Shown piece by piece: positions 1,501 to 37,559 of a DNA stretch of 64,000 nt. The notes under the pieces were generated by a model. The model saw only the letters and a list, made by a program, of their open reading frames with translations. It did not search any database and was not told where the DNA came from. A program made the translations under genes and the position numbers. This stretch comes from Algoriphagus algorifonticola (GTDB lineage: Bacteria > Bacteroidota > Bacteroidia > Cytophagales > Cyclobacteriaceae): positions 1 to 64,000 of the forward strand of contig NZ_VLOG01000040.1 of assembly GCF_007655305.1 (NCBI RefSeq), given 5' to 3'. Position 1 is the stretch's first letter. The number at the start of each line of letters is the position of its first letter.

Positions 1501-3201
1501 TCATTTATTATGAAGCAGTAGGGCTGTGTTTAACCACTGCCAGACATGAAAGCTGCTATCATTATCCCCTTTCATAAACTTACTGAGTTCTTTTTCAATT
1601 TTAGCATAATCAAACCAAGAATCCTGTCGAAGCAAGCTAATTTCATCACAAACCCAATCTTTCAAATTATCTGACAACCATTCTCTTTGAGGAGTTTGAA
1701 GAGGTCTTTTAGGAGCTAAGGAGATTTCCTCACCTAAGTATTTGTTTGCAATTTTTCTTAGAAGCCATTTTTGCTTTCCGTCTTTAATTTTAAAGTCTTT
1801 CGGACGCGAAAAAACATATTCAATTAATCGATAATCCAAGAAAGGCTCCCTCAATTCAGTACTAAAAGCCATACTAACTCTATCATTAAACCTGAGCGCT
1901 CTAGGGATCTTAGTATAAAACAAATCTCTGTATTGAAGATTTAATAACTCTTCTTCAAAAGGTTTAGGAAACTGATTTTGAGAAGCCAAACTACTGAAAT
2001 TAGCATCTAAAACTTCTGGTCTTAGAGGAGAAGATTTCACTCCTTGTATTAAATTTTGAGATTTCTTTAAATAATAATCATAACCTGCCCAAGCCTCATC
2101 AGAACCCTGCCCATCCAATAATACTATAATTCCTTTTTCACGGGCTTTTTGAAATACTTTTGCGTAAGCTAGTGTAGGAAGACCACCAAAAGGTTCATTC
2201 TGAACATCACTTATTTTCTTAGCTAATTCAGGGACCTCATCAGTCGACAACATGCAGGGATTCAAGGGAAAAGGCTTATCCTTTAGCATCTTTTCCACCC
2301 AAAATATTTCATCATAGCGGTCATCACCTGTCAAAAAAGTAAATGCTTCAATCTGTCTATTTTCGGGAAAAAGATCATAAACCAAGGCTAATAGAGTACT
2401 TGAATCCAATCCTCCGCTTAAGTTAAAACCAACCGGCACATCGGCTCTAAATCTTAATGAAACAGCACTTTTTAATAGCTCCAGAATATATTCTTCCTGA
2501 TCTTTAAGCTCCACTTCCGGTTGCGATTGAATCCTAGAAAAGAAATCATACCATTGGAAGATTTTTTGTTGCCCATCCTGCCAGATTAAATAATGGCCTG
2601 CAGGTAGCTGTTCCACCCCATTCCAAAAAGTTTCATTTGGTTGACCATAGGTCCCCTTACTAAAATAGGAAGACCAAACCGAGGGATTTGGGGTTTTTGG
2701 AACTCCAATTTTCCAAAACGGACTAATTTCAGAGGCAAAAAGAAAGGATCCATTCCAGTTGGTATAATTGAAAGGCTTCACCCCAAATCGATCACGTGCA
2801 GCAAATAACTTTCTCTCTAAATTATCCCAAATGGCAAATGAAAACATTCCATTAAAATGGGATAAACAGCTATCCCCCCATTTTAAAAAGGCTGCGAGAA
2901 GCACTTCTGTATCCGAACTAGTTCTAAACTTATAAAAGCTATTTAGCTGTTCTTTTAATTCGAGATAATTGTAAATCTCTCCATTGAATACTAGGATATA
3001 CCTTCCATTCTCGCTTTGAAAGGGTTGATTTGAAGAGTCTGATAGATCTAATATTGACAAGCGATTATGCCCTAAAGCTATCACTTGGTCATCCACCCAA
3101 AAACCAGTATTATCAGGTCCCCGATGAGATTGACTCCCTAACATTTGGAGAATTGGGGACTTCGAAGCCAGCTGTCCTAAAATTCCTGCTATGCCGCACA
3201 T
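1501..3201 (-). CDS. Asparagine synthase (glutamine-hydrolysing)-like amidotransferase, copy 1
   Basis: A 566-residue AsnB-type enzyme. The N-terminus MCGIAG exposes Cys2, the nucleophile of the class II glutaminase domain (about 1-200), followed by HNRLSILDLS at about 45. The synthetase half carries the ATP-pyrophosphatase loop SGGLDSS near residue 262 and a second conserved region (GQGSDE) further on. In polysaccharide loci such proteins are generally thought to amidate uronic-acid carboxyl groups rather than make free asparagine. It lies 1 nt after neuA and so is probably translated with the sialic-type genes. It is one of three paralogues in the window (others at 23041 and 39093), and they are divergent enough that recent duplication is unlikely. 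Confidence 0.9.
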   Translation of the reverse strand: MCGIAGILGQLASKSPILQMLGSQSHRGPDNTGFWVDDQVIALGHNRLSILDLSDSSNQPFQSENGRYILVFNGEIYNYLELKEQLNSFYKFRTSSDTEVLLAAFLKWGDSCLSHFNGMFSFAIWDNLERKLFAARDRFGVKPFNYTNWNGSFLFASEISPFWKIGVPKTPNPSVWSSYFSKGTYGQPNETFWNGVEQLPAGHYLIWQDGQQKIFQWYDFFSRIQSQPEVELKDQEEYILELLKSAVSLRFRADVPVGFNLSGGLDSSTLLALVYDLFPENRQIEAFTFLTGDDRYDEIFWVEKMLKDKPFPLNPCMLSTDEVPELAKKISDVQNEPFGGLPTLAYAKVFQKAREKGIIVLLDGQGSDEAWAGYDYYLKKSQNLIQGVKSSPLRPEVLDANFSSLASQNQFPKPFEEELLNLQYRDLFYTKIPRALRFNDRVSMAFSTELREPFLDYRLIEYVFSRPKDFKIKDGKQKWLLRKIANKYLGEEISLAPKRPLQTPQREWLSDNLKDWVCDEISLLRQDSWFDYAKIEKELSKFMKGDNDSSFHVWQWLNTALLLHNK

Positions 3202-3202: not shown

Positions 3203-3901
3203 TTATCTGAATAGTTTATTTACCAAAATTTCAGCCTTCTTCCAGTCATCGAATGTATCAAGGTTTACATATCGAGATTCATCACCAACTATATAGGCTA
3301 ATTTTTCACTTAAAATGGAATTTTTCGAGAGGATGACCTCTGACTTCGTGATATAAATAGCCCCATCCCTGAAAAAAGAGGTGGGTAAATCTTGCCTTCG
3401 GGGAATTATTTGTTTTTCTCCTGTAGCAATTTCCAAAAATCCATTTAGGCCAGGTTCAAACACCCAATGTGGATTAAACTCATGTGGAACGGGCAAAACA
3501 GAAACTAAGGCTTCTGCATCTGTTCGAATAAATTCTTTGATCGCATCATCGATCAAACCTTTTCTTCTAAATGGATAAGTTGTCTGAAGAAGGCAAACTG
3601 CATCAAATTTTTCACCCTTTTCCTCAAAAAATCTGAGTGCATGAGCAATCACAGGAAGAGTTGGCGATTGGTCATTTGCTAAGTTTTCCGGACGTGTAAA
3701 TGGGACTTCTAAACCTATTTGATTTGCTACAGCAATAATATCACTGTCATCAGAACTCAAAATAACTTTACTCAGCAGCTTAGACTGTTTAGCAGAATCA
3801 TATGTGTAGGCTAACAGAGGTTTTCCTCCGAGTGCTTTTATATTTTTTCCAGGAATACCTTTGGAACCACCCCTAGCAGGAATCAATCCAAGTATTTTCA
3901 T
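3203..3901 (-). CDS. neuA: Acylneuraminate cytidylyltransferase (CMP-sialic-type acid synthetase)
   Basis: Activates a nonulosonic acid (Neu5Ac, or an analogue such as legionaminic or pseudaminic acid) with CTP. At 232 residues it matches the catalytic domain of bacterial NeuA/PseF/LegF enzymes. The nucleotide-binding motif LIPARGGSKGIPGKNIK is at about 5-21, with the substrate-contacting LLQTTYPFR at about 104 and an ASV/IP-type central region. It follows neuB and neuC in the same direction, separated from neuC by about 300 nt that contain only a doubtful open stretch. The neuBCA combination without PseB/C or LegB/C-type genes favours a Neu5Ac-like product, though enzymes encoded elsewhere could change this. 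Confidence 0.9.
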   Translation of the reverse strand: MKILGLIPARGGSKGIPGKNIKALGGKPLLAYTYDSAKQSKLLSKVILSSDDSDIIAVANQIGLEVPFTRPENLANDQSPTLPVIAHALRFFEEKGEKFDAVCLLQTTYPFRRKGLIDDAIKEFIRTDAEALVSVLPVPHEFNPHWVFEPGLNGFLEIATGEKQIIPRRQDLPTSFFRDGAIYITKSEVILSKNSILSEKLAYIVGDESRYVNLDTFDDWKKAEILVNKLFR

Positions 3902-4205: not shown

Positions 4206-5360
4206 TCAAAAAGTAATGGTTTTATGGAAAATAAGAGGTACTTCAGCTAATAAATTAGCGATCTGAAACCCTGCATCTCCCCCTCCATAAACATCCGAGG
4301 AATCAGGTCTAGGATTGGATTTTATCTGATTGATTGCTTCAAGGATCTCAGATTTGGAATAGTTTACATCCAACACATTTTTGCCTCTTGCTCTTCTATT
4401 TTGTCTCGTACCAATATTGATCACTGGCACGCCCAGAAAAGCACATTCTCTGATCCCAACACTGCTGTTTCCTATCAGACCCTTGCTGTGAGATAACAGC
4501 TTAAGGAAATCAAGAGGATCCATATTCTTAAAGAAATGGAATTGACTCAGATCATTATTTTCTCGAAAAGCTCTAATACCGGTGCTAGTTCCATCAGCAC
4601 CTGCATCAACATTAGGCCAAAACCATAACACAGGCTCTTTTAATTCATGCAAGGCTTTTAGGGTCTCTTCAATATGCATTCTAGATTGACTTACTTCTGT
4701 TGTAACAGGATGCTGCATAACCACCCAATAGCCATTCTCAATGGATGGCTTCCCCCCTACTCCACCGTATTTCGAAAAAGGATTAAAATCCAATTTTGGG
4801 AGGTCCAATATTGTTTTCGCCAAGTCAATACTTGGGCAACCCGTATTAAAAACAAAATCAGGGTTTTCTCCTAAATCAAGCACCCTTTTTTTTGCATTTT
4901 CAGAAGCAACAAAATGGTAATCCGATAATTTAGTAATCGAATGCCTTACTTTTTCATCAATGTTTCCGGTAACTTCACCTCCTTGAATATGAGCAAGTGG
5001 AATATTCATATAGGAAGCAGAAATGGCTGTTGCCATAGTCTCAAACCTATCAGCAATTGTTACAACTATATCAGGATTAAGGTTGTCAAAAACAGTGGAT
5101 AACTCCAAGATTCCGATTCCGGTAGTCTTGGCTGCCGCTGTGAGGTTTTCACCTTCCAGAACATTAAAAACCTTAGCTGCTATACTGAACCCATCACTTT
5201 CAATTGTCCGAACCGCAGTTCCATATCGCTCCAACAAGGCAGAGGCAGCTACAACTAACTGAAGTTCTAACTCAGGATGATTTTGGATTGCATCCAATGC
5301 GGTCTTAATTCTTGAATAGGATGGCCTTGCGGTCACCACAACACAAATTTTTCTTTTCAT
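4206..5360 (-). CDS. neuC: UDP-N-acetylglucosamine 2-epimerase (hydrolysing)
   Basis: Predicted to convert UDP-GlcNAc (or a related UDP-diamino sugar) to a free ManNAc-type sugar plus UDP, the first step of sialic-acid synthesis. The 384-residue length fits NeuC/LegG. Visible family features are TARPSYSRIK at about 10-19, the HIQGGEVTGNIDE segment near 143 that is characteristic of the hydrolysing enzymes, and GNSSVGIRE near 297. The ATG directly follows the neuB stop (TAAATG, no gap), indicating co-translation. Its product is the substrate of the adjacent NeuB. Confidence 0.92.
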   Translation of the reverse strand: MKRKICVVVTARPSYSRIKTALDAIQNHPELELQLVVAASALLERYGTAVRTIESDGFSIAAKVFNVLEGENLTAAAKTTGIGILELSTVFDNLNPDIVVTIADRFETMATAISASYMNIPLAHIQGGEVTGNIDEKVRHSITKLSDYHFVASENAKKRVLDLGENPDFVFNTGCPSIDLAKTILDLPKLDFNPFSKYGGVGGKPSIENGYWVVMQHPVTTEVSQSRMHIEETLKALHELKEPVLWFWPNVDAGADGTSTGIRAFRENNDLSQFHFFKNMDPLDFLKLLSHSKGLIGNSSVGIRECAFLGVPVINIGTRQNRRARGKNVLDVNYSKSEILEAINQIKSNPRPDSSDVYGGGDAGFQIANLLAEVPLIFHKTITF

Positions 5361-6356
5361 TTAAATTATATCCTGATCAGTCAAAAATTCCCATTTTGTG
5401 AGTTTTCGAGCGGTCTTTTTGCCAATAACCGACTGATAATTGATTGCTGCTATTCCCTTATCGCCTGGTTTTTTTGATTCCAAATCATCAAAACCTATTA
5501 TGTGACCAGCTTGAAGATCCTTATTTACAGCCAGACTTTTTCCAAAAATTCTTTTCAGCTCAGTAAACTTAGAATTATCTGATTTGTGAATCGGGGACCT
5601 TAATGAGTTTTGTATCTGCCTGATTCCTTTACATAATCTTTCGGTATCATCGATTGAAATACTCGCCGGGGAATCAGGGCCAAACTGTCGCTTATCAAAA
5701 ACAACATGAAACTCGAAGATTTCAGCGCCAAGTGCAGCAGCAGCTAAGCAGGCGTAAATATCACCACTATGGTCAGAGAATCCAACTGGAATTTGAAAAC
5801 GGGTTTTCATCTCTGAAATTACATTTAAGCCCCACTCCTCTGGCTGGGTAGGATAGGCAGTAGTACATTGGAGAAGGCTAAGAGATGGCGTACCCGATTC
5901 TTTTAAAAAGGAAAGAGCTTGTTCCAATTCCTCAAAATCACTCATTCCAGAACTGACAATAACCGGTTTGCCGGTTTTACCTATTTTTTCAAGTATTAGA
6001 CGGTTGGTTATTTCCCCAGAGCCAATTTTGTAGACCTCGACTCCAACCTTTTCCAATAAGTCTACAGCCGCCAAGCTAAATGGGGAGGAAATAAACTTTA
6101 ATCCTTTTTCTTTACAATGCTCACTAATCCCCAACCATTGCTCCTCTGTAAATTCCATCCGCTTCCAATAATCAAACCTGGTTTTGTCCTGTTTTGAAAA
6201 TTTTACTCGAAAGGGCTCATATTCCGAACTTTCCGCTTCTGCAATATGAGTTTGAAACTTGATGGCATCGACACCTACAGTTGACAACGCCTCTATAAAA
6301 GCATGAGCATTCCCTAAGCTCCCATCATGGGCTTGGGCTATTTCTGCAATAATCAT
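5361..6356 (-). CDS. neuB: N-acetylneuraminate synthase family protein
   Basis: Condenses phosphoenolpyruvate with a ManNAc-type sugar to make a nonulosonic acid. The 331 residues show the TIM-barrel domain (AEIAQAHDGSLGNA at about 4-17, IKFQTH at 33-38, FISSPFS at about 90, YKIGSGE near 113, SSGMS near 136, GFSDHSGD near 194) and a C-terminal antifreeze-like SAF domain (about 273-331, KSLAVNKDLQAG). The start codon overlaps the stop of the giant adhesin-like gene by one base (TAATG), so translation is very likely coupled to that gene. Substrate may be Neu5Ac, Leg or Pse type; the NeuC neighbour favours a ManNAc-derived product. Confidence 0.92.
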   Translation of the reverse strand: MIIAEIAQAHDGSLGNAHAFIEALSTVGVDAIKFQTHIAEAESSEYEPFRVKFSKQDKTRFDYWKRMEFTEEQWLGISEHCKEKGLKFISSPFSLAAVDLLEKVGVEVYKIGSGEITNRLILEKIGKTGKPVIVSSGMSDFEELEQALSFLKESGTPSLSLLQCTTAYPTQPEEWGLNVISEMKTRFQIPVGFSDHSGDIYACLAAAALGAEIFEFHVVFDKRQFGPDSPASISIDDTERLCKGIRQIQNSLRSPIHKSDNSKFTELKRIFGKSLAVNKDLQAGHIIGFDDLESKKPGDKGIAAINYQSVIGKKTARKLTKWEFLTDQDII

Positions 6357-9300
6357 TAACGAATTAAAATAAATACTCCGGATTTATGAACAACTTCACC
6401 TGATCTGCTGGTAAACTTGCCTCTAAATACATAATTGCCATTTGGTGCAGGGCGACCTTTGAAATACCCATCCCAACCTTGAGCTTCTAGTGAAGAAGTC
6501 TCATATATTAACTCTCCCCAAGTTGTGAAGATGTAAAACTCCATTGAGGCGATTCCTCTAAATACCGGTTTAAAGAAATTATTTTTGCCATCCGCTCTAT
6601 CCGGCGTGAAGGCAGTAGGAACTTCTACCCAAAATTCATCTGATACCTGAATAGTTTGCTCATATACAGAGGAACAACCAAATTCATCAATTACAGTCAA
6701 TCTAATCAAATAGGTTCCTGCTTCTTCATAAAAGTGCGTAGGATTAATTTCTGAACTAGAATTTCCATCACCGAAATCCCAATTCCAAATAATTACTTTC
6801 CCTTTTGATAAATTATTGAATAGGATATTTTCAAAAATCTGAAGTGAATCCTGTGACACTAATTGACCATTGAAAAGCTCAACTTCAAAATCAAAGTCAG
6901 CCACTACTAACTCATCTGCGATAATCACTCTAATTCTTTGAGGCTCATTCCAACATCCAGAACCTTTGGTACTACTTCGCACCCTATAATCTCCAGATTG
7001 GTTCACGTTATCAATATCGCTAATCTGCATGGCCGCTCCAGAAGGGCTCAGAATATCATAATCATATATGGCAGGATTAAACCCTTCGATATATTGGGTT
7101 AAGTCCACCGTTCCTTGTGGATCGCACACCACTGAAGGGTTTGATACTCTTAAATCAGGTATCCTACTCACAAAAACCTGAACCGGTTTTGGCTCAATGC
7201 CACAAATACCTGTTCCGGAAACATTGACATAATAGGTATAAGGCGTAGATCTTTCTCTTAAACCATCAACCCTTAATTCCCCATTAGAAGAAATTGAATA
7301 AGTAACTCCTCCTGAACTTCCATTGGAAATTGGCTGAGTTCCATTTGAATCAAAAAACCAGGTAAATTCCTCATCTAAAATATTCTGAGGGACTCTTGGA
7401 GATAAGATCGCCTGCTGTCCTTCACAAATTCTTTGATCCTCAACGGTTATTTCAGTAGGAATTTCGGTTACTTCTATGGATTGAGGCAAACTGAATTCGC
7501 AGCCTGAGTCGTCAACTATCCTAATTTGATAATCTCCTAATCCCAATCCAGTGATTGAAACTATTCCTTCAGAAGCAACTGACAAACTATTCTCAGGGTC
7601 TCCAGATTTTTGATAATAAACAGTATATGGAGTATATCCACCTGATAGTTCAAATCGTACAATTCCATTATCCAACCCACAAGTCGGGCTGTCTATTTCC
7701 GGATTATCAACTGCAATAGCTGCTTGAGGACCATTTACAAGTATATCGGAAAGAATCACACTGCAGCCCGTAGCACTCATCACTTCAATACTATAAGTAC
7801 CTGCAGCAACTTCAAAAATATTATCATCAACAAAATCTCCTCCATTCAAACTATAGGTATATGGTCCTGTGCTTCCACTAGGATTTACCGTAATTCTACC
7901 ACCATCACCAAAACAGACTTCATCGATTACAGTATAAGTCGCATTCGGAATTTCTGAAACTTGAATGGTCCCGCTTCCTACAAAACCTTCACAGACATCT
8001 CCACCAGAAACCGTGACATAGTATGTTAAACTCGCATTAGCATCTGCAAAGCCACTGACATTCAATATCCCATTTGAAGAATTATATTGATAAGTTAAGC
8101 CATTCGGAGCAGAGTTAGGAGAGCTTGTGATAGGCTGAGAAAGATTTGAATCAAAATACCAAGTAAAATTGACTGAAGTTCCATTAGGGTCTAACTCAGG
8201 AATCAGAGTTGCATTTTGATCAGAACATATTTCTACATCATCAACCAAAATTTGGGTAGGACCGTCAACTAAAGTGAGTAAGTTGGTGTCAAATTGGCAA
8301 CCTTCTGAATCAGTTATTCTAATAGAATAATCTCCAATCGTTAGGCCGTTGATTTCTACTTTTCCATCCTGAGAAGAAATACTTTGATTTTGGCTTCCAT
8401 TCTTAATCAAATCAATTTGATAAGGAGCCCAACCACCTGTCACAGTCACAAATAATTTTCCATTTGCTGACCCACAACCAGGGTCTAAACCAGTTAAAGG
8501 AGAGGCAGTCAAGGCGGAAGAAGGACCTTCAACAGTGAATTCAATAAGTTGAGAGCAATTTGCAGGCGTAAATATTTCTAATTCATAATCCCCAGCGACA
8601 AGATTTAATGATTCAAGCTGATTTTTATCCATTACACTTCCCCCATCCAGACTATAAGTATAATCAGGTAAGTCCCCACTAGTCACTGTTACTTTACCGT
8701 TGGTATCTCCAAAACAAGTGACGGGAGAAACTTCCAATTCAACCGATGGAGTTTCATAAATACTTAGGTCAACTTTGATTTCCTGTCCGGTACATACCAC
8801 GAAGAAATAATAAGAATAATCACCAGCTGGCAATCCAGAAATAATTAATTCAGGATTAAGCCAATCAGAATCATTGATTGTATAACTAACATTCGAGTTC
8901 GAAGGATCTTGTCCATTTTCAATCAGACCATTTTGATTCGGTTGCTTATACCATCTAACTTCAGTGGCTGAAGCAGGTGGCAAAGAAGGATCCGGAGCCA
9001 AGTGAATAGGTCTTATCGAAACGTCGTTTCCAACACATGAATTGATTGGTGGAACTAATTGATAAACAGGATCCGAAGATCTTTCGATTATGAATTCAAA
9101 AATCTCTTCACATCCTTCAGCATCCTGAACGATTAAATAATAAGTGCCAGGCGCAAGATCAGAGATTCCAGATTCAGTTCCTTGTAAAATTTGACCATTT
9201 ATTGAGCCTGCCCTCCACTCTATTTGGAAAGAGCCCCATCCACCTGAAATTTCTAAACCAGAGATACTACCATTATCCAAATCGCAAGAAGCTCTGACTA

Positions 9301-12300
9301 TTGATGGAGAGTTAATTTGTATTGGTTCTTCAGGACCTAACAATTCGACAGTTTCAGAATAGGTACATCCCAAATCATTCCGAACTTCAATTGAATAAGT
9401 TCCTGGACTCAAGTTTTGGAAGTTCAAACCTGAACCAAACGCGCCTCCATTAAAACTCACCTCGTAAACCCCATTTCCACCAGAAGGAAGTACTGATATA
9501 GAACCATCATTAGCTCCAAAACATACTACGTTTTCAATATCAATATCAGCTGTTACAGGAGGATAAACCTTCACCTCAGCCATTTCAAAGAATGCGCAAA
9601 TGCCTGGACCTGATACTCTCAAATAATAGATATAATCACCTGCAGGTAGATTTTGAATACTTAATTCACCATTCGAATTAATTTGGAAAATCAATCCGTT
9701 TGCGTCAGGATTTGGACTTGAGTTAATTGGTTGTGAAGTATCTGGGGTTTTATACCAAGTAAGTTGAGGCTGAACACCAGCAGGAATTTCTAAATCTGGG
9801 GTTAAACTTACTATTTGTCCTACGCAAATTTCCTCAGAAATTGGCGTTGAATTTATTTGAACCCCATCATTATTGACTAAAGTAACGAAATCAATCTCAG
9901 TCAGTGAGCAATTATTCTGATCTACTACTTCAATGGAGTAATCTCCCGGTGCTAAATTGGTTAATGTATATTCTTGACCATTTTGAGTAAAACTATAGGT
10001 AGAAATATTCTGACCATTTATTTCAATTGAATAATCTGGCGTACCACCCTGAACAGCAAACGAAAATTCTCCATTTGAGTCGCCACAGCTTGGATCTGTA
10101 CTGTTAATAAAGTTAACAGCTAATGGTTCAGGCTGAACAATCTCCAACTCATATAGCTCAAAACAACCATTTGAGTCTTCAACTCTCACCTCATAAATCC
10201 CGGCAGCTAAATTTGAAAAATTACCAGTTTGATTAGATTCACCCGTGTTAATTGTATAAGTATAGCCTGCAGGGTCACCGATCAGACTAATTCTTCCATC
10301 ATTTGACTCAAAACAGCTCAACGGGGATACATCAAAATCTTTTTGAGGCAATGGATTTACAATGATAGATCCTGGAATCATTGGCCCTTGACAAACTCCA
10401 TCCCCACTTACTTGAAGTAGCAGTTGGTATGGAGAATCATTGGAAGAAAGTCCTGTTAAACTTATTTCTCCATTACTCGAAATTGAAACTTGAGCTCCAA
10501 AAAGCTCCTGACCATTCGAGATTTCAGTAGTGTCTCCTGTATCATTCAAATAAAACCAGGCGAATACAGGAGAAGAGCCAGCTAAATTTATAATCTCAGG
10601 AATTAAAACTGCTGAGTTTGGATTTCTGGTTGTAGGATCAATTTCACAAATTTCGGAATCAATTACTCCAAATTCCGGTATTTCGTCAGCATCAATAATA
10701 ATTGTTTCCTCTTTAGTACAACCTTTCGAATCCTCAATTAAGACTATATAGGACTTAGGCGCTAAGTCAGTTAGAATCGCTGTAGCGCCAGGGTTGGCAA
10801 GGTCACCTCCTGTTATTTCGGCTCCATCCAAAAATAGTTTGTAAGGAGCAGTTCCTCCAGAAATTTCTAATTCTATAGATCCATTGTCTAAATTACATGA
10901 GGCATTGAATCCAGAGATTTGAGTGAAAATCAATTCCTCTGGCTGATCTATTATCACTTCGAATACATCCAAGCAATTAGTTTGAGTATTTGTGACTTGG
11001 ATCGAATAAGTTCCGGCTGACAGGTTAGTAAAAGTACCTGAGGTATTGGACTCTCCTGAATTAAGTAGCTGATAAGCATAGTCATTGGACTCTCCTGCCG
11101 ATACAAATATCTCACCATCTGTTCCATTGAAACAACTCGGTATCGTGGAAGAGAATTCTGGATTTGGGAGGGGGTTTACAATCAATTCCACAGAAATCTT
11201 TGGTCCAGAGCATACCTTATCGCCTGTAACCTCCAATAAAAACGTATAAGGATTGGAAGAAGCTGGAACTCCAGTTAAAGAAAGGTTTCCATTAGAATCT
11301 ATCGAGGAACTACCACCGAAAACAGCATCTCCTGAATTTACTTGAACTTCATTCCCATTTTGATCTAGGTAAAACCAGGTAAATACCGGTGAAGAAGAGG
11401 CTAATTCTACTATGACAGGTGATAAAACTGCCGTATTAGGATTCCCCGAAGCTGGGTCAGACTCACATATGATTGAACCTGTTGCAGAGAACTCTGCAAA
11501 TGGGTCGGCTTGAATTACAAAATCCTGTGTAACCTGACAACCTTCTGAGTCTGTCACCACGATTTGATGGTTACCACTTGCTAAGTCGGTTAATTGGATA
11601 GTAATTCCTGAAGAGGACAAATCAAATCCTGATATGGAATTCCCATCTAATATTAGCGTATAAGCAGGAGTTCCACCTTCAATAAAAATAGTTGCTATAC
11701 CATTATCCTCACCACAGAAGGTATTTTCCAAACTTGATAATGCTACATTTAATACCGGTGCTTGGTCAAGAGTAAACGGAATAGAACTTACACAACCTGT
11801 GGTTTTATTTCTTACAGTTGCAGTATACGAGCCAGCAGTTAGGCCTGTAAAAGAAGGATCATTTTGGAAATTAGTCAGCCCATCAATTTGAAATTCAAAA
11901 TCAGCGATATTTCCATTCAGTACACCAATAGTTACTGCTCCATCATTTCCTCCAAAACATGATATATTTTGGAGACTCGTAATTTCTGGTTCAGGAAGAT
12001 CAAATATTTCGAAATTGACTGGGATTCTAGGTAGATTACAGGATTCTGGCCCTGACATCTCTAGATATAAAGTATAAACACCCCCGGATAGATTTGAAAT
12101 CGTCAAATCACCGGTTTGCGTTTCATAGAAATAATCCATCCCCCCAGGGCCTGTACCATTTGGTATTAGTGAACCTCCAGTCTCTTGGGTATACCAATTA
12201 AAAATTGGGGTGGCAGTGGCTTGAATCTCAAAGAAATCAAACGTGACATCTAAGAAATAGCTATTATCACTTTCACAAATTGAGGGAGGAGTATTTACTG

Positions 12301-15052
12301 AAAAAATTGGCTTGGTGATGTCATCAAGCGAGAAACTCAAAGTTACCAAACAAGACCGGGCATCTCTAAATTCAATAGTATAAGGTGTATTTGGTGCTAA
12401 GCCATCAACTCTATACTCGGAAGTTGCATTATCAAAATTCAGTGAGCCAAATGGACCACCTGAAATTGAAATATCAGAAATATTATATGGAGTATTTCCT
12501 CCATTTATCTGGAATGTAAACTCTCCATTGTTTAATTCACATGTAGCAGGACTTCTGGAGATTTCAGTTAAAGTTAAGTCAGTATCCGGGCCCTGAACTA
12601 TCACTTCTATTGTTTCGAAGCAAGAAGGTGACTGAGAGGTCACTTCTACCTGATATGTTCCAGGCAATAGTCCTGCAAATTGGCCATCTGAATTTTGACC
12701 GAGTGTTGAAGTTCCTGATTCATCGAATAAAGTGAAAGTTCTCGGACCATTCCCCCCTGTAGCTGCTATAGCTATGGAGCCTATACCTTCTCTACACCAA
12801 TCTGGAACTGAGCTTTGAGTAAGCTGTATAGCGGGATGAACAATTACCGTCGCAGAAGTGGCGATATCGCCGATAAACGGGCAAAAATTAGGGGTACTCG
12901 GATTATCTTGAGGAGCAACTTCAACGAAAAATTCATATTGCTGGGTTGAGGCTCCATTAGCAGGCAATCCTGTCAATGTTAACACCCCCTGAACTACTGA
13001 AACTTGAACTGGTGCACCGCCAATTGTAACGGTAGTATTATCTAAAAGAGGACCAGTTCTATTAGCATTTTGGAACCATCTAAAATCAGCCTGAATATTA
13101 GATGGATTGTAAACTCCATCAATGAACGGAGTAAAACTTACGGGTTGAAACTCACAAATCACTTCATTTTCAGAAGTCAACTCTATTGGAGTGCCCAGTT
13201 CCTGATCAACCACTATTGGGACATCCAGATAACACCCACCACCATCGGAAGGATTCCAAACTTGAAGTGTATAAGTACCAATATTAATACCTGTGATATC
13301 AAATACGCCAACTCCTGTGCTTGAGTCAAAACTTACATTCGCCCCTGATTTGCCCAAACTTACTTCAGGACCAGTACTTGGCTGCCACAACCACTGATAA
13401 TCAAATCCGGGAACTAAATTTCCAACTGTAACATCAAATATTCTTCCATTACTTTGGCCATCACAGGTTGGATATTCTAAATCTCCTCTATCTATTTCTT
13501 CTGGAAATGGATTGGAAATTACAGTAACCGTTTTTCCGAAAGATGTTAATCCATAGTTGTCAATTACTTGGTAATAAACCTGAGCTTCCCCTACAAATCC
13601 AGGCTCCGGCACAAAATTAATCGCTGCTTTTATCCTATCTTGATCATTTTCGAGATCAACATTTTCATCTAAAACGACAGTGAAAGTACCTTTTCCAGGA
13701 ATTGTTACAGAATTGTTCGCCGGGTTACATTTCTCTATACATACATCCGAAGCCCCACAATTATTGACATCAGGATCGCCACCTGTAGGCGGGCTGTTAT
13801 CAGGTGTTCCCGGATCAGTTTCAAAAAGCTGAACACACCTCACGAAAGAGTTTTCAGAAGTTAAAGTAACATCAAACTCAAATAAGTTTTCTTCGTCCTT
13901 ACAAATCTCGGCTCTTTGATCAATAATTTCAGGAATTGGAATCGCCAAGTAATCAGATACTTCGACTGTTACATTTCTGATCTCGTGAAAATTGGTTTGT
14001 CCTCCAGTAGAGGCCGCGAATCCAATCTTGAGGTTATCAGGAGCAGGGAAATTATAAGGAACATTAGTAATAATTGGCTCAATCCTTCTGAATCCATTTT
14101 CAGTAACCAAAAGATCTACTGATAATAAATAGGTTCCAGATCCTGTTGGTGCCAAGTTCACAAACACCTTTCTATACCCATCCAAATTACAGTCCACTAC
14201 CTTTACTGGTGAAGCTAAGGAAAACCTTCTTGAAATATCCGCAACATTGGGATAGAGATAAGCGGAAGGAGGCAACACTACTGCTGGACTAGGCTCATTA
14301 TCAGGCCCATGTAATACCCTTTTCCCTGCAATGAAACGATAATTGTCTGACTCTGGACCTCTAACTGCTATTGATTGAAAATATTCCTTATTCGGAGGAA
14401 TAAAGGAAAGATTAATCGGGGCAGCATTGGGATTGTCAAAACTACCCAATCTACCTTCCATATTATTACCCCAGTTTTTGAAAGCATCTAACCCTAAGCC
14501 CAAATACCCACCTTTCAACCCAGGTAAATTTACAGGAGCAGGAATGATATCAGTTGCATTTATTGGCGCATAACCCAAAGAACCTCCCCAACCTCCGATT
14601 TGGAAATCAGCCGCTGAAATATTTCCATCAAACAAAAAGACTGATATACCGTCAGCTCCAGAGCCACCATACATGAAATATTCAAATGAAAATTTCAAAC
14701 CATAGGCAGATGAAAAAGGCAAATCCACAAAAACATAGCCCCTTTGATCGGTGTTATTGTTAGTCAATCGTAGAAAACCCTGACCCTCGGGATTTTCACC
14801 ATTTGCAGCGGTGAGAATGGGATTAGTTGGACTACCACCCAATACGGTGTTTTGCCTAAAAGTTGAATTTGTAAATGGTTCGCAATAAGGAAACCCGTCC
14901 CTAGGTATTACCACCTGGGCTTCGGATACTGTATTCAATGCTAAAAAAAAGATTATAAAAACATATAAGAATCTAACATATAGACACTTATTGGACAAAA
15001 AAGACAATGTCCAAAGCCAATTACTTACTTTTATATGATCTCTACGCAACAC
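6356..15052 (-). CDS. Giant secreted repeat protein, lectin-like N-terminus, SprB-type repeats, PKD, T9SS type B sorting domain
   Basis: A 2,898-residue surface or secreted protein, probably an adhesin. Order: a signal peptide (hydrophobic VFIIFFLAL, cleavage near residue 46); an L-type lectin-like beta-sandwich at about 50-370 (GADGISVFLFDG motif); a linker with a Cys-rich insertion; then from about 520 to 2,640 a long tandem array mixing about 15 SprB-like units (CFGxNDG or CxLDNG, then LxxGxYxIxVxD) with about 8 Ig-like units starting ICE/ICV and containing FTWY; a PKD domain at about 2,720-2,800 (WNWDFGDG); and a type B sorting domain at about 2,805-2,898 (PTAFTPDRADGKN, then WGELIYE, WDGYFKG and PNGNYVF). 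It begins with GTG at 15052; TTG codons further in are alternatives. A promoter-like site lies about 40 nt upstream. Its stop overlaps the neuB start. Role in adhesion or gliding is inferred from family. Confidence 0.9.
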   Translation of the reverse strand: MLRRDHIKVSNWLWTLSFLSNKCLYVRFLYVFIIFFLALNTVSEAQVVIPRDGFPYCEPFTNSTFRQNTVLGGSPTNPILTAANGENPEGQGFLRLTNNNTDQRGYVFVDLPFSSAYGLKFSFEYFMYGGSGADGISVFLFDGNISAADFQIGGWGGSLGYAPINATDIIPAPVNLPGLKGGYLGLGLDAFKNWGNNMEGRLGSFDNPNAAPINLSFIPPNKEYFQSIAVRGPESDNYRFIAGKRVLHGPDNEPSPAVVLPPSAYLYPNVADISRRFSLASPVKVVDCNLDGYRKVFVNLAPTGSGTYLLSVDLLVTENGFRRIEPIITNVPYNFPAPDNLKIGFAASTGGQTNFHEIRNVTVEVSDYLAIPIPEIIDQRAEICKDEENLFEFDVTLTSENSFVRCVQLFETDPGTPDNSPPTGGDPDVNNCGASDVCIEKCNPANNSVTIPGKGTFTVVLDENVDLENDQDRIKAAINFVPEPGFVGEAQVYYQVIDNYGLTSFGKTVTVISNPFPEEIDRGDLEYPTCDGQSNGRIFDVTVGNLVPGFDYQWLWQPSTGPEVSLGKSGANVSFDSSTGVGVFDITGINIGTYTLQVWNPSDGGGCYLDVPIVVDQELGTPIELTSENEVICEFQPVSFTPFIDGVYNPSNIQADFRWFQNANRTGPLLDNTTVTIGGAPVQVSVVQGVLTLTGLPANGASTQQYEFFVEVAPQDNPSTPNFCPFIGDIATSATVIVHPAIQLTQSSVPDWCREGIGSIAIAATGGNGPRTFTLFDESGTSTLGQNSDGQFAGLLPGTYQVEVTSQSPSCFETIEVIVQGPDTDLTLTEISRSPATCELNNGEFTFQINGGNTPYNISDISISGGPFGSLNFDNATSEYRVDGLAPNTPYTIEFRDARSCLVTLSFSLDDITKPIFSVNTPPSICESDNSYFLDVTFDFFEIQATATPIFNWYTQETGGSLIPNGTGPGGMDYFYETQTGDLTISNLSGGVYTLYLEMSGPESCNLPRIPVNFEIFDLPEPEITSLQNISCFGGNDGAVTIGVLNGNIADFEFQIDGLTNFQNDPSFTGLTAGSYTATVRNKTTGCVSSIPFTLDQAPVLNVALSSLENTFCGEDNGIATIFIEGGTPAYTLILDGNSISGFDLSSSGITIQLTDLASGNHQIVVTDSEGCQVTQDFVIQADPFAEFSATGSIICESDPASGNPNTAVLSPVIVELASSSPVFTWFYLDQNGNEVQVNSGDAVFGGSSSIDSNGNLSLTGVPASSNPYTFLLEVTGDKVCSGPKISVELIVNPLPNPEFSSTIPSCFNGTDGEIFVSAGESNDYAYQLLNSGESNTSGTFTNLSAGTYSIQVTNTQTNCLDVFEVIIDQPEELIFTQISGFNASCNLDNGSIELEISGGTAPYKLFLDGAEITGGDLANPGATAILTDLAPKSYIVLIEDSKGCTKEETIIIDADEIPEFGVIDSEICEIDPTTRNPNSAVLIPEIINLAGSSPVFAWFYLNDTGDTTEISNGQELFGAQVSISSNGEISLTGLSSNDSPYQLLLQVSGDGVCQGPMIPGSIIVNPLPQKDFDVSPLSCFESNDGRISLIGDPAGYTYTINTGESNQTGNFSNLAAGIYEVRVEDSNGCFELYELEIVQPEPLAVNFINSTDPSCGDSNGEFSFAVQGGTPDYSIEINGQNISTYSFTQNGQEYTLTNLAPGDYSIEVVDQNNCSLTEIDFVTLVNNDGVQINSTPISEEICVGQIVSLTPDLEIPAGVQPQLTWYKTPDTSQPINSSPNPDANGLIFQINSNGELSIQNLPAGDYIYYLRVSGPGICAFFEMAEVKVYPPVTADIDIENVVCFGANDGSISVLPSGGNGVYEVSFNGGAFGSGLNFQNLSPGTYSIEVRNDLGCTYSETVELLGPEEPIQINSPSIVRASCDLDNGSISGLEISGGWGSFQIEWRAGSINGQILQGTESGISDLAPGTYYLIVQDAEGCEEIFEFIIERSSDPVYQLVPPINSCVGNDVSIRPIHLAPDPSLPPASATEVRWYKQPNQNGLIENGQDPSNSNVSYTINDSDWLNPELIISGLPAGDYSYYFFVVCTGQEIKVDLSIYETPSVELEVSPVTCFGDTNGKVTVTSGDLPDYTYSLDGGSVMDKNQLESLNLVAGDYELEIFTPANCSQLIEFTVEGPSSALTASPLTGLDPGCGSANGKLFVTVTGGWAPYQIDLIKNGSQNQSISSQDGKVEINGLTIGDYSIRITDSEGCQFDTNLLTLVDGPTQILVDDVEICSDQNATLIPELDPNGTSVNFTWYFDSNLSQPITSSPNSAPNGLTYQYNSSNGILNVSGFADANASLTYYVTVSGGDVCEGFVGSGTIQVSEIPNATYTVIDEVCFGDGGRITVNPSGSTGPYTYSLNGGDFVDDNIFEVAAGTYSIEVMSATGCSVILSDILVNGPQAAIAVDNPEIDSPTCGLDNGIVRFELSGGYTPYTVYYQKSGDPENSLSVASEGIVSITGLGLGDYQIRIVDDSGCEFSLPQSIEVTEIPTEITVEDQRICEGQQAILSPRVPQNILDEEFTWFFDSNGTQPISNGSSGGVTYSISSNGELRVDGLRERSTPYTYYVNVSGTGICGIEPKPVQVFVSRIPDLRVSNPSVVCDPQGTVDLTQYIEGFNPAIYDYDILSPSGAAMQISDIDNVNQSGDYRVRSSTKGSGCWNEPQRIRVIIADELVVADFDFEVELFNGQLVSQDSLQIFENILFNNLSKGKVIIWNWDFGDGNSSSEINPTHFYEEAGTYLIRLTVIDEFGCSSVYEQTIQVSDEFWVEVPTAFTPDRADGKNNFFKPVFRGIASMEFYIFTTWGELIYETSSLEAQGWDGYFKGRPAPNGNYVFRGKFTSRSGEVVHKSGVFILIR

Positions 15053-15091
15053 GCCTGAAGAATTCTACACTTTGTAAATCTTGGAATAAAT

Positions 15092-15121
15092 CAAATATAC
15101 GAATTGAACTACCAGCACCAA
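15092..15121 (-). promoter_or_regulatory. Bacteroidota-type promoter for the adhesin-neuBCA operon
   Basis: On the minus strand TTG (15121-15119) is followed after 19 nt by TATATTTG (15099-15092), an exact match to the Bacteroidota primary-sigma consensus TTG-N19..21-TAnnTTTG. The predicted transcription start would lie roughly 30 nt before the GTG start at 15052. Prediction only. Confidence 0.5.
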
Positions 15122-15441: not shown

Positions 15442-16296
15442 CTATGAATTATCGTCAGTTATAAGCTTAGGGCTTTGCTTATATTTTGGAATTGATGTGA
15501 AAGGAATATTGAATACAATATTTTTGATAATGCTGAGAAATTGCCTTAACCCAATCTTTCCTGCTCTATGCAAATAGATCAGCTGAGGATATTTACTATC
15601 GGGATATAAATCCTTTAATGGATTCCCAAACTGGGATGGGTCTCTATAACACTTGAAATTATTTCGCTTGACCAATAAGCTAAAAATGGATTGATCATGA
15701 CGATGCTCAACAAAGCAATCTATTCCCTGACTTGGGTGACTATCATCAATGTAAATCAAATTTTGAGAATATGACAACCACTCTTCTATTAACTTAACTG
15801 AGAGATCACTTTTTTTAATTAATATAAACCCCGCCAATCGCTGAAAGGAATCTTGAAATTGAGAAGATTCACAGTTCAATTCCTGAAAAACAAGTTGCTT
15901 GGTAAATGCCTTTTCTACATAGGGAAGCTCAAAGGAAATAACATCCTGGTCTAGATTTATACTTGAAATTAGGCGTCTGATATTTCGTTTAAAAACAGAC
16001 CCTGAATCAGAATAAAATAAGTACTGCCCATATTCTAATTTTTCTAATGTTTTTAAAATAACATAGGGTTTCCAGACCCAATACCCGCCTCCTCTGGATT
16101 TTTGAAAGTGATCTTGATTTTTTTCAACAAATTCAATCTCCAAATCTTCGAAACAATAAGAAATTACTTTATCGAATCCGCCAAGTAAAACACCTGAAAT
16201 GGAGTTAAAAATCTGGGCCGTCTTAAAATTACTATTTGAATAATTTACAAGGACAATTGGTACTTTGCTTTTGAAAAAGGATCTATATATTTTCAT
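15442..16296 (-). CDS. Probable glycosyltransferase of the RGGGYWxWKP family
   Basis: A 284-residue protein when started at the ATG at 16296; an in-frame GTG at 16362 would add 22 residues but gives an unlikely N-terminus. It begins with a beta-strand-like PIVLVNYSNS, followed by SRGGGYWVWKPYVIL and LFYSDSG, an acidic DxG metal-site-like motif. This combination is known from GT-A-like polysaccharide glycosyltransferases of unassigned family in capsule loci. A later segment has HRHDQSIFSLL, a conserved feature of these proteins. It is the last gene of the long transferase run. Substrate unknown. Confidence 0.65.
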   Translation of the reverse strand: MKIYRSFFKSKVPIVLVNYSNSNFKTAQIFNSISGVLLGGFDKVISYCFEDLEIEFVEKNQDHFQKSRGGGYWVWKPYVILKTLEKLEYGQYLFYSDSGSVFKRNIRRLISSINLDQDVISFELPYVEKAFTKQLVFQELNCESSQFQDSFQRLAGFILIKKSDLSVKLIEEWLSYSQNLIYIDDSHPSQGIDCFVEHRHDQSIFSLLVKRNNFKCYRDPSQFGNPLKDLYPDSKYPQLIYLHRAGKIGLRQFLSIIKNIVFNIPFTSIPKYKQSPKLITDDNS

Positions 16297-16507
16297 TAAA
16301 GGCTTTGTGAAGTAGCTTTTGTGAAAATCATGATGAATTTTGGCATGAGTGCCCAAACCCACCTATTCTATAAGTATAAAGCTAAAATTTAGAAGAATAC
16401 TGAAATAGATTAGCATTGACTGACACTTAGCAGGTCTTTTCTATTGAACTCTTGCAAAAAGAATAAAAAAAGTCCAACGGGTAAATAAATTATTGAATCC
16501 AAAAAAA

Positions 16508-17539
16508 TCAATCCGGGTCGCCCAATAAATTTATAAGAACCCGGTCGAGCTTTTTTAAATCAATTTTAAAATCGGCATACCCTGTCTGAGCACTTGTGGC
16601 TTCATTATCAGTATAATAATAATCATGGCCTAAAAATGAAGCAAGAGAGTAAAAGCTTTGACTTAAAACCCAAGAATCATTCTCATTTCGAAACTCTAAA
16701 ACCTTTCCATTCTTTGGCATATAGAGCATATTCACCAAACCTGCTCCATGGAGTCCTACCAATATTTTGGTTTCCATCATGATTTCAATTTGTTGTCTTA
16801 CAGTCAAATGCTCAAAATAGACGATTTCAAATCCTTTTCTCTTAAGTTTTTCAATTACTTGATCCTCATTAAGAACCTTTCTATGGGCAGCATTTTCTCT
16901 ACTGATATAGATTTTTCTACTTGCCTTCTTGACCGGGAAATTATTCCAGATTTTTTCTCTAAGTCTAAGAATTGCACTTTCCTGAAAGTCTATCACATAC
17001 CCTGCTTTATTAACTGTTATTAATTCCCCTACCACATAATTCACTTTTCTATCAAAGTAGAGGGGCTTAACACCCAGAATTTCCAAGCTTTCCTCCACAA
17101 ATTTTAGCCCTTTAAATTCTGAGGGTAATAAAACAGGATGGTCTTCCAAATATTCTAAACAGGAGATAAGTCTAGGGAGAGCTTCACTATTCCAGTGATA
17201 AAAATTCATGCTCCAGTTATCTATGATCCAAACACCTCTTTCTATATGCTTTGTTTTCCTTAGAAGCCCTAGTACTAGCCTTTTGAATTTTGCTCTAGGT
17301 TTTAATTTTAGTGCATGGGTTAACTGATCCAGAACTTTCAGTTTATAAATAATTGAATCAGTAACTAGAGACACATTTTTAAATATATATGCATCTACTT
17401 GATTGGCAACTCTTCTTTGAATATCTGAAAAGATTGCTGTGTCTTTTTCTTCCAAATTCACAGGAAGTTGAAGAAGATATTCAGTTTTTGGATAAACTGT
17501 ATGCCTTTCGAGGCTTGAATTTTTGGGCAGTAATCTCAT
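16508..17539 (-). CDS. GT61-family (DUF563) glycosyltransferase
   Basis: A 343-residue protein resembling GT61 capsular transferases. Supporting features are NWSMNFYHWNSEALPRL at about 126-142, YISRENAAHRKV at about 211 (the family's conserved basic YxxR segment), and VGLHGAGLVNMLYMP near 260, the hallmark GxHGAGLxN motif. It has no signal peptide or membrane segment and probably acts at the cytoplasmic face. It is followed after 145 nt by the unassigned transferase at 15442 and preceded by an FkbM-like methyltransferase gene. Sugar specificity is unknown. Confidence 0.8.
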   Translation of the reverse strand: MRLLPKNSSLERHTVYPKTEYLLQLPVNLEEKDTAIFSDIQRRVANQVDAYIFKNVSLVTDSIIYKLKVLDQLTHALKLKPRAKFKRLVLGLLRKTKHIERGVWIIDNWSMNFYHWNSEALPRLISCLEYLEDHPVLLPSEFKGLKFVEESLEILGVKPLYFDRKVNYVVGELITVNKAGYVIDFQESAILRLREKIWNNFPVKKASRKIYISRENAAHRKVLNEDQVIEKLKRKGFEIVYFEHLTVRQQIEIMMETKILVGLHGAGLVNMLYMPKNGKVLEFRNENDSWVLSQSFYSLASFLGHDYYYTDNEATSAQTGYADFKIDLKKLDRVLINLLGDPD

Positions 17540-17565
17540 TTAACCTAATTCAAAGATAGGTTTGA

Positions 17566-18378
17566 TTAAGAATTAGAGAAAGGTTTCATATACAACCAGG
17601 ACATTCCTTTTGGCCTTCTTTCATCTAAAGCATATCGTTTCTCTTTTTCAGATAGCATGTGTAGAGGGTAACTTAATACTCTTCCAGAATAGTCAAGAGC
17701 TATTTGAATAGCATGGCTTGCTTGGAACCTTTCCACTAAGGCTTTTTGAATTCCCGGAAAAAAACAATCATGAACCTCTACCAAAATCTCGCATTTTAAT
17801 AAGCTTTTGCTTTTTAAAGGATCTAATAAAGACAATTCATGACCTTCTATATCACAAAAAAGTAAAGTCGATTCATCACAATGCTGATCTAAAAATTTAT
17901 GGTCTACCTCCTTAATAAAATCGATATTCTTCAATCCATTTCGAACTGAAAGTTCCTTTGCTAGTGCAAGTGCATTTTCATTAATATCGCATGCAATTAT
18001 TTGGGCAGTCGGGATTGATCGGGCAAATCCAATTGCATAAAAGCCTTCAGCACAACCAACATCAATAATTCTTTTGTATTTGTTTGATGCCAAAATCTGG
18101 AAAATCCAATCATGTATCGGTTCTTCATAGGCTCCTATAATTTTCGGAAGCAACATGCTTCCACTAGCCATCCCCCCATATTTCATTCCTTTGAAAGGTC
18201 CCTGAAGAACAACCATCTGATCATTAAACCCAAGTTTATTCAGAATTTGATGTTGTAAATTTTCCTCCTCTTTTTTTAAAGCCTGACTTAATTCTTGACT
18301 CTTTTTATAAGAATTTGTCTTTCTATAAAAAGATCTATACAAGCCATATAATGACTTTTTAAGAGAATTTGCGAGCAT
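17566..18378 (-). CDS. FkbM-like SAM-dependent methyltransferase
   Basis: The 270-residue form begins at ATG 18378; a TTG at 18417, only 5 nt after the deacetylase stop, would add 13 residues and is possible given the frequent TTG starts here. A SAM-binding motif IIDVGCAEGFYAIGFA (about 100-115) is followed by ACDINENALALA and, later, LLFCDIEGHELSLL, matching the acidic DxEGxE motif of FkbM methyltransferases. It probably O-methylates a sugar of the glycan. It lies between the deacetylase and GT61 genes. Confidence 0.75.
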   Translation of the reverse strand: MLANSLKKSLYGLYRSFYRKTNSYKKSQELSQALKKEEENLQHQILNKLGFNDQMVVLQGPFKGMKYGGMASGSMLLPKIIGAYEEPIHDWIFQILASNKYKRIIDVGCAEGFYAIGFARSIPTAQIIACDINENALALAKELSVRNGLKNIDFIKEVDHKFLDQHCDESTLLFCDIEGHELSLLDPLKSKSLLKCEILVEVHDCFFPGIQKALVERFQASHAIQIALDYSGRVLSYPLHMLSEKEKRYALDERRPKGMSWLYMKPFSNS

Positions 18379-18422
18379 ATGAGATTTTTCTGTAAATGAG
18401 ATGTTATTAAGATTCAAAAAAG

Positions 18423-19388
18423 TTAATTTTTTTGATTTCTGGGGGAAAATTTTTCAGTTGTTATGTCATTTGTATCAATTCGACTTAATTGAAAGGCATT
18501 GTTCGAGTTTACACGAGCAACTCCTGGAGATACTGTAAGTGCAAGCTTGAATCCCATTGATTTTATCACTTCAATCGTATCAGAATTATAGCCCCCATGA
18601 GGATAGCACATTGTCTTGGTGTTTTCATTCACCCCAATTGAACCTAAAAACTGACTACACTTGGATATTTCCTCCTCCTGCTCTTTTCTTGAGAGCAGAT
18701 TAAGCCATGGATGAGAGTATGTGTGATTTCCAAGATGCATCCCAGAAGAAACCATGTATTCTAACTGATCCTTACACATATATAATTCCTTACTGAATGA
18801 CTCTTCGTCCATCCTGACGGAATCCCTAAACAACTCATCAATCAATTGATTTCTATAAGGCTGAGGAATAACCTTCTGAAGCATTCTTTTTATCAGCATA
18901 ATCTCTCCGCAATCGTTGAGGTGTGGTATAGCATGCATCTGAAATAGGCTATCGGAATCAGGAAGAGGAATTTCCCTTCTGATCTTATCTACTTCTTCAA
19001 ATATTTTCTTGATAATTTCTCTTTTATTCGAATTTAAGGCTAAAATAAAATGAATCTTATTCACATTTAAGACTCTGTTTTCAGTAATCATTTGAGATGG
19101 AATGTAAAAACTTCCCTGAATACCCCACTTTTTTAATATTGGAAAAACCTGAGCAAAATGATCTGAATACGAATCATCAAAAGTAAGTATTGCTGCATTT
19201 TCCGGAAGTTTAGATTGGCTCACGATTGCATCAATCAAATCTTCCATTGTAATCAATTTATAATTATTCTTCAAAAAGGCCACTTGCTCCTTAAATAAAG
19301 ACGTTTCAAGCCCCTTTATTCCTGGAAATCGTGACTTTTTAATTTCTCGAACATAATGATAAACAACAATAGAAACGGTATTAGTCAT
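18423..19388 (-). CDS. Polysaccharide deacetylase (NodB/CE4 domain)
   Basis: Removes N- or O-acetyl groups from a carbohydrate. Starting at ATG 19388 it gives 321 residues beginning MTNTVSIVVYHYV, the usual start of this family. An earlier in-frame start at 19418 would lengthen the overlap with the preceding gene. CE4 motifs are present: TFDDSYSDHF (catalytic Asp and metal Asp, near 80), GNHTYSHPWL (metal His pair, near 220) and CYPHGGYN (near 260). There is no signal peptide, so it is probably cytoplasmic and acts on a lipid-linked intermediate, or leaves by another route. It overlaps the stop of the GNAT gene by 8 nt. Confidence 0.85.
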   Translation of the reverse strand: MTNTVSIVVYHYVREIKKSRFPGIKGLETSLFKEQVAFLKNNYKLITMEDLIDAIVSQSKLPENAAILTFDDSYSDHFAQVFPILKKWGIQGSFYIPSQMITENRVLNVNKIHFILALNSNKREIIKKIFEEVDKIRREIPLPDSDSLFQMHAIPHLNDCGEIMLIKRMLQKVIPQPYRNQLIDELFRDSVRMDEESFSKELYMCKDQLEYMVSSGMHLGNHTYSHPWLNLLSRKEQEEEISKCSQFLGSIGVNENTKTMCYPHGGYNSDTIEVIKSMGFKLALTVSPGVARVNSNNAFQLSRIDTNDITTEKFSPRNQKN

Positions 19389-20511: not shown

Positions 20512-20526
20512 TTTTTTAAGAAAAAC

Positions 20527-21588: not shown

Positions 21589-21594
21589 AAAAAT

Positions 21595-24885: not shown

Positions 24886-24895
24886 ATTTAAATTA

Positions 24896-31894: not shown

Positions 31895-31949
31895 GACTTG
31901 AAATAGAGTAGAAATTCAAATAAAGGTAAAAAATTGATTGAATGCATTC

Positions 31950-31966
31950 TGATTAATTTTTAATCA
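31950..31966. repeat. Inverted repeat TGATTAA-TTT-TTAATCA
   Basis: Perfect 7-base arms with a 3-nt loop lie between the acyltransferase stop and the polymerase start. Neither strand has a following T-run, so it may be an operator-like or mRNA-folding element rather than a terminator. Confidence 0.3.
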
Positions 31967-37558: not shown

Positions 37559-37559
37559 T

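Follow-up and report, generated by a model that had tools for sequence, protein, structure and literature searches.

The window analysed here (64,000 nucleotides, bases 1-64000 of the 122,566-base contig 35 of a 4.45-Mb draft genome) carries, inside a polysaccharide gene island, the gene of a giant adhesin, a predicted cargo of the type IX secretion system (T9SS), whose stop codon meets the start of a gene of the nonulosonic-acid synthase type (neuB). In related genomes the same adhesin gene is found either in such an island or beside a gene for its secretion partner, a pattern suggestive of a joint exchange of coat and adhesin. Judging from its sequences, the genome belongs to an Algoriphagus near A. 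ornithinivorans, since the lectin domain of the adhesin is 98% identical to its relative in A. ornithinivorans DSM 15282, and RpoB and RpoC (RpoBC) are 99.6% identical to those of G053 (G-numbers denote the genomes compared, G000 being that of the window; L-numbers denote loci). The island spans the genes from 376 to 48600, which encode a UDP-sugar dehydrogenase, Wza-like, Wzc-like and Wzy-like proteins and an ABC-type exporter (all by Pfam), many glycosyltransferases, three asnB-like amidotransferases (1501-3201, 23041-24885 and 39093-40973) and one WecA-like transferase. The three asnB-like genes may mean that the polymer contains acidic sugars in amidated form.

The initial annotation, made from the sequence alone, had described a type B T9SS protein of 2,898 residues with a lectin-like N-terminus, and both parts of this description hold. 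The sorting domain exceeds the curated cut-offs (PF13585, 35.6 against 27; TIGR04131, 36.1 against 35), so that by its domain content the adhesin is a predicted type B substrate. An AlphaFold2 model, which covers the lectin domain only and was built from 62 sequences (predicted local distance difference test, pLDDT, 88.1; an earlier model from 12 sequences was poor, with pLDDT 55, and was left unused), matches the legume lectins and ERGIC-53/VIP36 (Foldseek E 4.5e-10; VIA-align Z up to 21.5, root-mean-square deviation 2.5 over 211 residues), and the sequence profile of the domain reaches peanut lectin with a whole-sequence E of 4e-6. According to the model, the N-terminus clearly has the jelly-roll fold of L-type (legume) lectins. 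With the Pfam family Lectin_L-type_dom (PF18483) the domain scores 29.0 bits, below the gathering cut-off of 78.3, and falls outside the family as defined there. In legume lectins the sugar site is formed by a triad of Asp, Gly and Asn, and the Mn/Ca metal site includes a Glu. Asp88, Gly110/111 and Asn147 are invariant in the 62 lectin sequences and align with the DG, GG and N of peanut lectin; we take these residues to correspond to the legume sugar site, the whole triad being present. The domain is rare outside the family (of 395 genomes sampled across the phylum 13 have it, and four of these 13 are in Algoriphagus). Most genomes of the genus, and relatives as well, also have a short paralog (mostly 780-830 aa) with the same lectin domain, which frequently lies close to the end of a contig; that of the window's own genome (G000:C19:2543-3523, locus L127) has a CHU_C signal and an adjoining PorP/SprF gene. 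Two clusters in this genome have three CHU_C matches each (G000:C51:117154-124636 and G000:C11:4500-11503).

The adhesin gene and neuB meet in TTAATG, the last A of the adhesin's TAA being the A of the neuB ATG, and neuC begins at the base right after the neuB stop, as had been annotated. The accompanying statement that neuA and an amidotransferase gene come next is right in that both lie downstream, but neuA is separated from neuC by 304 nt (3902-4205) with a 71-aa open reading frame (ORF; 3918-4133) that has no Pfam match. NeuC scores 383 with its equivalog model TIGR03568 (cut-off 236); NeuB scores 312 with that of N-acetylneuraminate synthase (TIGR03569), below the cut-off of 400, and is referred to as a putative nonulosonate synthase. 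A second, distant NeuB (33% identical) is encoded on another contig (G000:C24:21979-22935).

Table 1. Features of the adhesin gene and of the surrounding polysaccharide island in the window.
Feature	Coordinates	Strand	Basis
Giant T9SS type B adhesin, 2,898 aa, GTG start (predicted)	6356..15052	-	ORF + Pfam/NCBIfam
L-type (legume-type) lectin domain (modelled)	13937..14908	-	AlphaFold2 model, Foldseek, VIA-align, profile
Repeat region, SprB repeats and Ig-like matches (limits approximate)	6826..13700	-	Pfam SprB, five stretches
PKD domain	6644..6823	-	Pfam PF18911
CHU_C / TIGR04131 type B T9SS sorting domain	6359..6625	-	PF13585, TIGR04131
TAATG, adhesin stop overlapping neuB start	6354..6358	-	sequence
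Promoter-like site TTG-N19-TATATTTG, 69 nt upstream of the adhesin GTG	15092..15121	-	regex match
neuB-type nonulosonate synthase (putative)	5361..6356	-	Pfam/NCBIfam NeuB
neuC-type hydrolysing UDP-N-acetylglucosamine (UDP-GlcNAc) 2-epimerase	4206..5360	-	TIGR03568 over cut-off
neuA-type cytidylyltransferase	3203..3901	-	Pfam/NCBIfam
asnB-like amidotransferase	1501..3201	-	TIGR01536 over cut-off
WecA-like initiating sugar-phosphate transferase	376..1350	-	PF00953
Remaining polysaccharide island (glycosyltransferases, Wzy-like, ABC-type exporter, Wzc-like, Wza-like, UDP-sugar dehydrogenase)	15442..48600	-	Pfam

In the 11 other genomes with the same gene order the adhesin gene and neuB are joined by a 1-nt overlap (two), without a gap (eight) or at a distance of 1 nt (one), which is tighter than chance would give. 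The stop/start overlap had been read as the sign of a special link between the two genes; this reading fails, because close spacing is habitual for neuB. In 12 genomes (ten of the genus, G110 and G114) the orthologous neuB lies behind a block of Wzc, ABC exporter and glycosyltransferase genes, mostly behind asnB3, and in 10 of these 12 it is likewise close to the preceding gene (overlap in six, at most 25 nt in four; 57 and 97 nt in the other two). Class-wide controls, consisting of the best-scoring 30 neuB loci with 1.5-kb flanks, show an upstream gene in 22 cases and none in eight; this gene lies within 12 nt of neuB or overlaps it in 18 of the 22, by which translational overlap is ruled out as a special signal. 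Within the same flanks a T9SS signal was detected by our own profile in none of the 30 control loci, and in all four positive controls.

The proposal that the adhesin and the nonulosonic-acid genes share a transcript gains support, the adhesin gene probably being the first of a transcription unit extending into neuB, because the gap upstream of the adhesin has a median of 166 nt (n = 38; at least 70 nt in 36 of 38) and that upstream of the other genes in the loci a median of 5 nt (n = 328; at least 70 nt in 77). A promoter-like site precedes the gene in the window, and its first base, 15121, is also the end of the stretch delimited in the initial annotation; its TTG and the length of its spacer we take to be those of a -33 element. 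The -7 consensus TAnnTTTG is as in F. psychrophilum (PMC9723704, in excerpt). This box occurs within 130 nt ahead of 17 of 36 adhesins and of 18 of 77 other spaced genes, a modest enrichment (p 0.016 by the Fisher test, which here and below ignores relatedness).

NeuB orthologues at least 51% identical to that of the window are present in 29 of 194 genomes, its own included. As for the giant lectin adhesins themselves, 51 sequences were taken and 49 classified, after two masked ones (G062:C1:1608912 and G009:C1:808362, L227 and L228), whose long frames are artefacts of 5,000 N each and which probably represent the short paralog, had been dropped; fragments (G001, G032 and G057), matches from outside the genus such as G116, G145, G160, G173 and G186, and the core-site copy of G001 (see below) were kept apart from the 49. 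Polysaccharide islands hold 39 of them, and 10 lie elsewhere. Nonulosonic-acid genes adjoin 23 of the 39 island adhesins, so that the neighbourhood is indeed a recurrent one within the genus, in four orders and with two distant NeuB lineages: adhesin-neuB-neuC in 12 genomes, with a 1-nt overlap, no gap or 1 nt at the junction in 12 of 12; adhesin-neuA-neuB-neuC in five, where NeuB is 32-35% identical to that of the window; adhesin-neuB-neuC-neuA with the second NeuB type in one; and neuB-neuC-adhesin-neuA, with one gene or none before neuA, in five (in G001 the contig ends before neuA). The remaining 16, two in G110 and two in G114 among them, are not adjacent to such genes, and in G009 and G052 an island adhesin is present although the best NeuB match reaches only E 6e-6. 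The pairs in Arthrospiribacter (G114) and Indibacter (G110) are tandem ones (loci L226 and L244), with a GT61-like gene between the two adhesins on the opposite strand. Among the papers listed in searches of the open-access literature (PMC7440613, in excerpt), none describes, by its listing or the opening of its abstract, a pairing of adhesin, nonulosonic-acid genes and polysaccharide island, subscription papers and preprints being outside the scope of the search.

It had also been supposed that the lectin might read the neighbouring acidic sugar. Between G059 and G033, however, the lectin domains are 90.6% identical and two neighbouring island proteins 71% and 68%, while the cassettes differ (NeuB 36%, NeuC 31% and NeuA 31% identical); similar lectins thus stand beside different cassettes, and a lectin specific for the adjacent acidic sugar is unsupported.

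The 10 giant adhesins outside the islands share one conserved locus, here called the core site, which ends in u231-u568-ODC-adhesin-PorP1 (homology was checked for nine). PorP1 is a PorP/SprF protein by Pfam (251 bits), and its gene starts at the adhesin stop or a few bases from it, that is, in the place that neuB takes in the island. Six genomes (L306, L308, L322, L324, L325 and L326) have, directly after PorP1, a protein of about 400 aa resembling part of the giant adhesin. The locus was read in 36 further genomes, 32 island carriers and four without a giant copy, and in all 36 (32 of 32 and four of four) ODC is followed by PorP1 after about 140-230 nt with no adhesin between them. In 10 of 10 filled sites the leader DNA ahead of the adhesin matches the one that empty sites have ahead of PorP1 (72-93% over 43-169 nt). 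Tabulated by site, one genome has both copies, 32 the island copy only, 10 the core copy only and four neither (Fisher p 1.9e-6; the core loci of G017, G066, G110 and G114 are outside this table), so that 42 of the 43 carriers of the genus whose core locus was read have the adhesin at exactly one of the two sites.

Type B substrates are reported to need a PorP/SprF protein, the genes being usually clustered (PMC10202324, in excerpt). Such clustering is usual, not obligatory, and the window adhesin has no clustered partner, none being found on contig 35 with TIGR03519; its genome has seven PorP/SprF genes, all on other contigs. A PorP/SprF profile built here found no member in 36 island loci of 9.7-20 kb each; the same profile matched in 10 of the 12 core-type loci, failing just in the two that are masked, and in 38 of 40 short-paralog loci, other genera of the family included. 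Orthologues of PorP1, 75-93% identical, are present in 52 of the 71 genomes of the genus that were searched, and the genomes lacking one are mostly of 2.2-2.9 Mb, with G015 and G067 in addition. The window's own genome retains an orphan PorP1 (G000:C63:92990-93991), which shares 76% identity with the partner encoded right after the adhesin in other species.

Species exchange both the position of the adhesin and the sequence of its lectin, largely without regard to the chromosome backbone. In an RpoB+RpoC tree of 40 genomes (trees were built by a quick method, with SH-aLRT support only) the arrangement classes need 22 changes, the mean of shuffled labels being 23.6 and 42 of 200 shuffles as low, and core-site residence needs six, at least five of them forced by supported branches. 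A tree of four core-locus genes requires 25 changes against 28.2 (12 of 200 shuffles as low), which means slight clustering; a single inherited arrangement is rejected by both trees. G023 and G016, with an identity of 99.8% in RpoBC and of 99.0% in the core-locus genes, share only 42.7% in the lectin, and the pairs G021/G019, G030/G026 and G052/G043 behave likewise. The core-locus genes track RpoBC (rho 0.63), whereas lectin identity is unrelated to core-locus identity (rho -0.004). Core-site adhesins, from seven species as divergent as the rest, average 69% lectin identity, and island ones 48%. The type of island goes with the site of the adhesin: where neuB follows the Wzc block (11 genomes of the genus), the adhesin is at the core site in nine, G034 and G065 being the exceptions, and in one of the other 34 carriers (G038, whose island is unread); Fisher p is 5.9e-7, or 4.8e-6 with G110 and G114 counted as further exceptions.

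As a reasonably probable explanation, we suppose that the protein is secreted and works as an adhesin of the matrix or capsule, belongs with the polysaccharide island, is exchanged together with it, finds its secretion partner in trans and holds the cell's own polysaccharide by its lectin. The T9SS would export the adhesin with the help of a PorP/SprF protein encoded elsewhere, most likely PorP1 of the orphan gene, the adhesin would remain on the cell surface or close to it, and there its lectin end would bind, hold or cross-link the polysaccharide produced by the same island. The island would pass between species, an incoming one bringing its own adhesin, with loss of the copy at the core site, or the opposite would happen. 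Within the islands, nonulosonic-acid cassettes would be swapped beside the adhesin, because both would belong to the exchanged unit, and the nonulosonic acid would enter the polysaccharide rather than the adhesin. A bolder version, tentative and in our judgement short of probable, is that of a portable adhesin matched to the polysaccharide: as a rule one per genome, it would commute between core locus and island, a swap of the coat would replace its holder as well, and the PorP/SprF protein of the core would serve whichever adhesin arrives.

Several observations weigh against the main explanation. The full promoter consensus precedes only a few of the adhesins. G001, a metagenome-assembled genome in 510 contigs, has an island copy (cut by the contig end) and a filled core site as well, and the PorP/SprF profile may overlook remote members of the family. 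In the lectin, the Glu of the legume metal site is replaced, the aligned residue being Gly, and therefore sugar binding may be altered; besides, the lectin sequence fails to track the NeuB type, and therefore no sugar can be named as the ligand. Finally, two close pairs of genomes keep their lectin (G000/G053, 97.9%; G028/G066, 93.8%), and lectin identity is weakly associated with RpoBC (rho 0.17, Mantel p 0.005).

The adhesin might instead be mere cargo of a hypervariable surface-antigen island, in which its place near wecA makes it a recombination spot collecting nonulosonic-acid cassettes, and have no contact with the polysaccharide. Its location near the 3' end of the island, ahead of wecA, in many loci, the scatter of the arrangements over the species tree and the lack of correspondence between lectin and NeuB type are all in line with such hitchhiking; residence at exactly one of two sites in nearly all carriers whose core locus was read tells against it, as does the greater likeness of the core-site lectins, which are unlinked to the island and come from equally distant species. 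We consider it unlikely, though deserving of serious weight. Alternatively, the lectin might face outwards, to foreign glycans of algae or animals, the island placement only coupling its expression. L-type lectins bind many glycans, which counts in favour of this. So does RbmC of Vibrio cholerae, which joins a matrix-binding domain to domains for host surfaces (PMC10102183, in excerpt). A lectin of this kind leaves the movement of the gene between island and core site unexplained, and we regard it as quite improbable.

As to the suggestion that the adhesin itself carries the sugar, the precedent is the O-glycan of the Tannerella S-layer, with terminal pseudaminic (Pse) or legionaminic (Leg) acid, at D(S/T)(A/I/L/M/T/V) (PMC6120980, in excerpt). 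The sequon D[ST][AILMV] is depleted in the adhesins: 72 are observed against 285 expected in 39 island copies (0.25), 7 against 70 in 10 core-site copies (0.10) and 1 against 8.5 in the window adhesin, compared with 213 against 204 (1.04) in 253 cytoplasmic proteins encoded in the same loci. The repeat structure may account for part of the depletion, because in the island adhesins the reversed tripeptide exceeds expectation (1.49) and E[ST][AILMV] too falls short of it (0.58). A general O-glycan on the adhesin is rejected on account of the depletion, which therefore makes this route, as far as sequons can tell, unlikely; other kinds of attachment are unaffected by such counts. Type B secretion is reported to be independent of PorV (PMC10202324, in excerpt), and therefore anchoring by the PorV-PorU route need not apply. 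Attachment of the nonulosonic acid or another island glycan to the adhesin, by O-glycosylation or at a C-terminal anchor, is thus very improbable, in spite of the Tannerella precedent and of the gene neighbourhood.

In these bacteria the adhesin and its PorP/SprF partner have been separated repeatedly, and the empty and filled sites with their matching leader DNA are natural controls. This makes two ideas testable in environmental bacteria, namely that a type B adhesin uses a partner in trans and that coat polysaccharides are exchanged together with the lectin recognising them. If the bolder version is true, coat plus anchor would form an exchange unit, and one PorP/SprF protein would be a docking partner indifferent to the lectin carried.

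Among the known systems, Tannerella forsythia likewise has nonulosonic-acid genes as well as T9SS cargo, its S-layer glycoproteins with terminal nonulosonic acid, but there the protein itself bears the sugar, at DS/DT sequons, of which the window adhesin has fewer than expected. With the legume L-type lectins and ERGIC-53/VIP36 the adhesin shares, according to the model, the fold and the Asp/Gly/Asn residues of the sugar site; unlike the legume lectins, it has one metal-ligand Glu replaced by Gly and scores below the PF18483 cut-off. Bap1 and RbmC of Vibrio cholerae differ from it in fold and secretion route. As secreted adhesins that work with a matrix polysaccharide, they may serve as a functional analogy, with no homology claimed (PMC10102183, in excerpt). 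According to PMC10202324 (in excerpt), it is not yet understood how the T9SS transports type B substrates, and anchoring by PorP/SprF has the status of a proposal. SprB of Flavobacterium has the giant size, the SprB repeats and the type B T9SS signal in common with the window adhesin. SprB and SprF are encoded in one operon, remFG-sprCDBF (PMC9723704, in excerpt), whereas the window adhesin has no PorP/SprF gene on its own contig; unlike SprB, it possesses an N-terminus modelled as an L-type lectin, and its gene lies inside a polysaccharide island.

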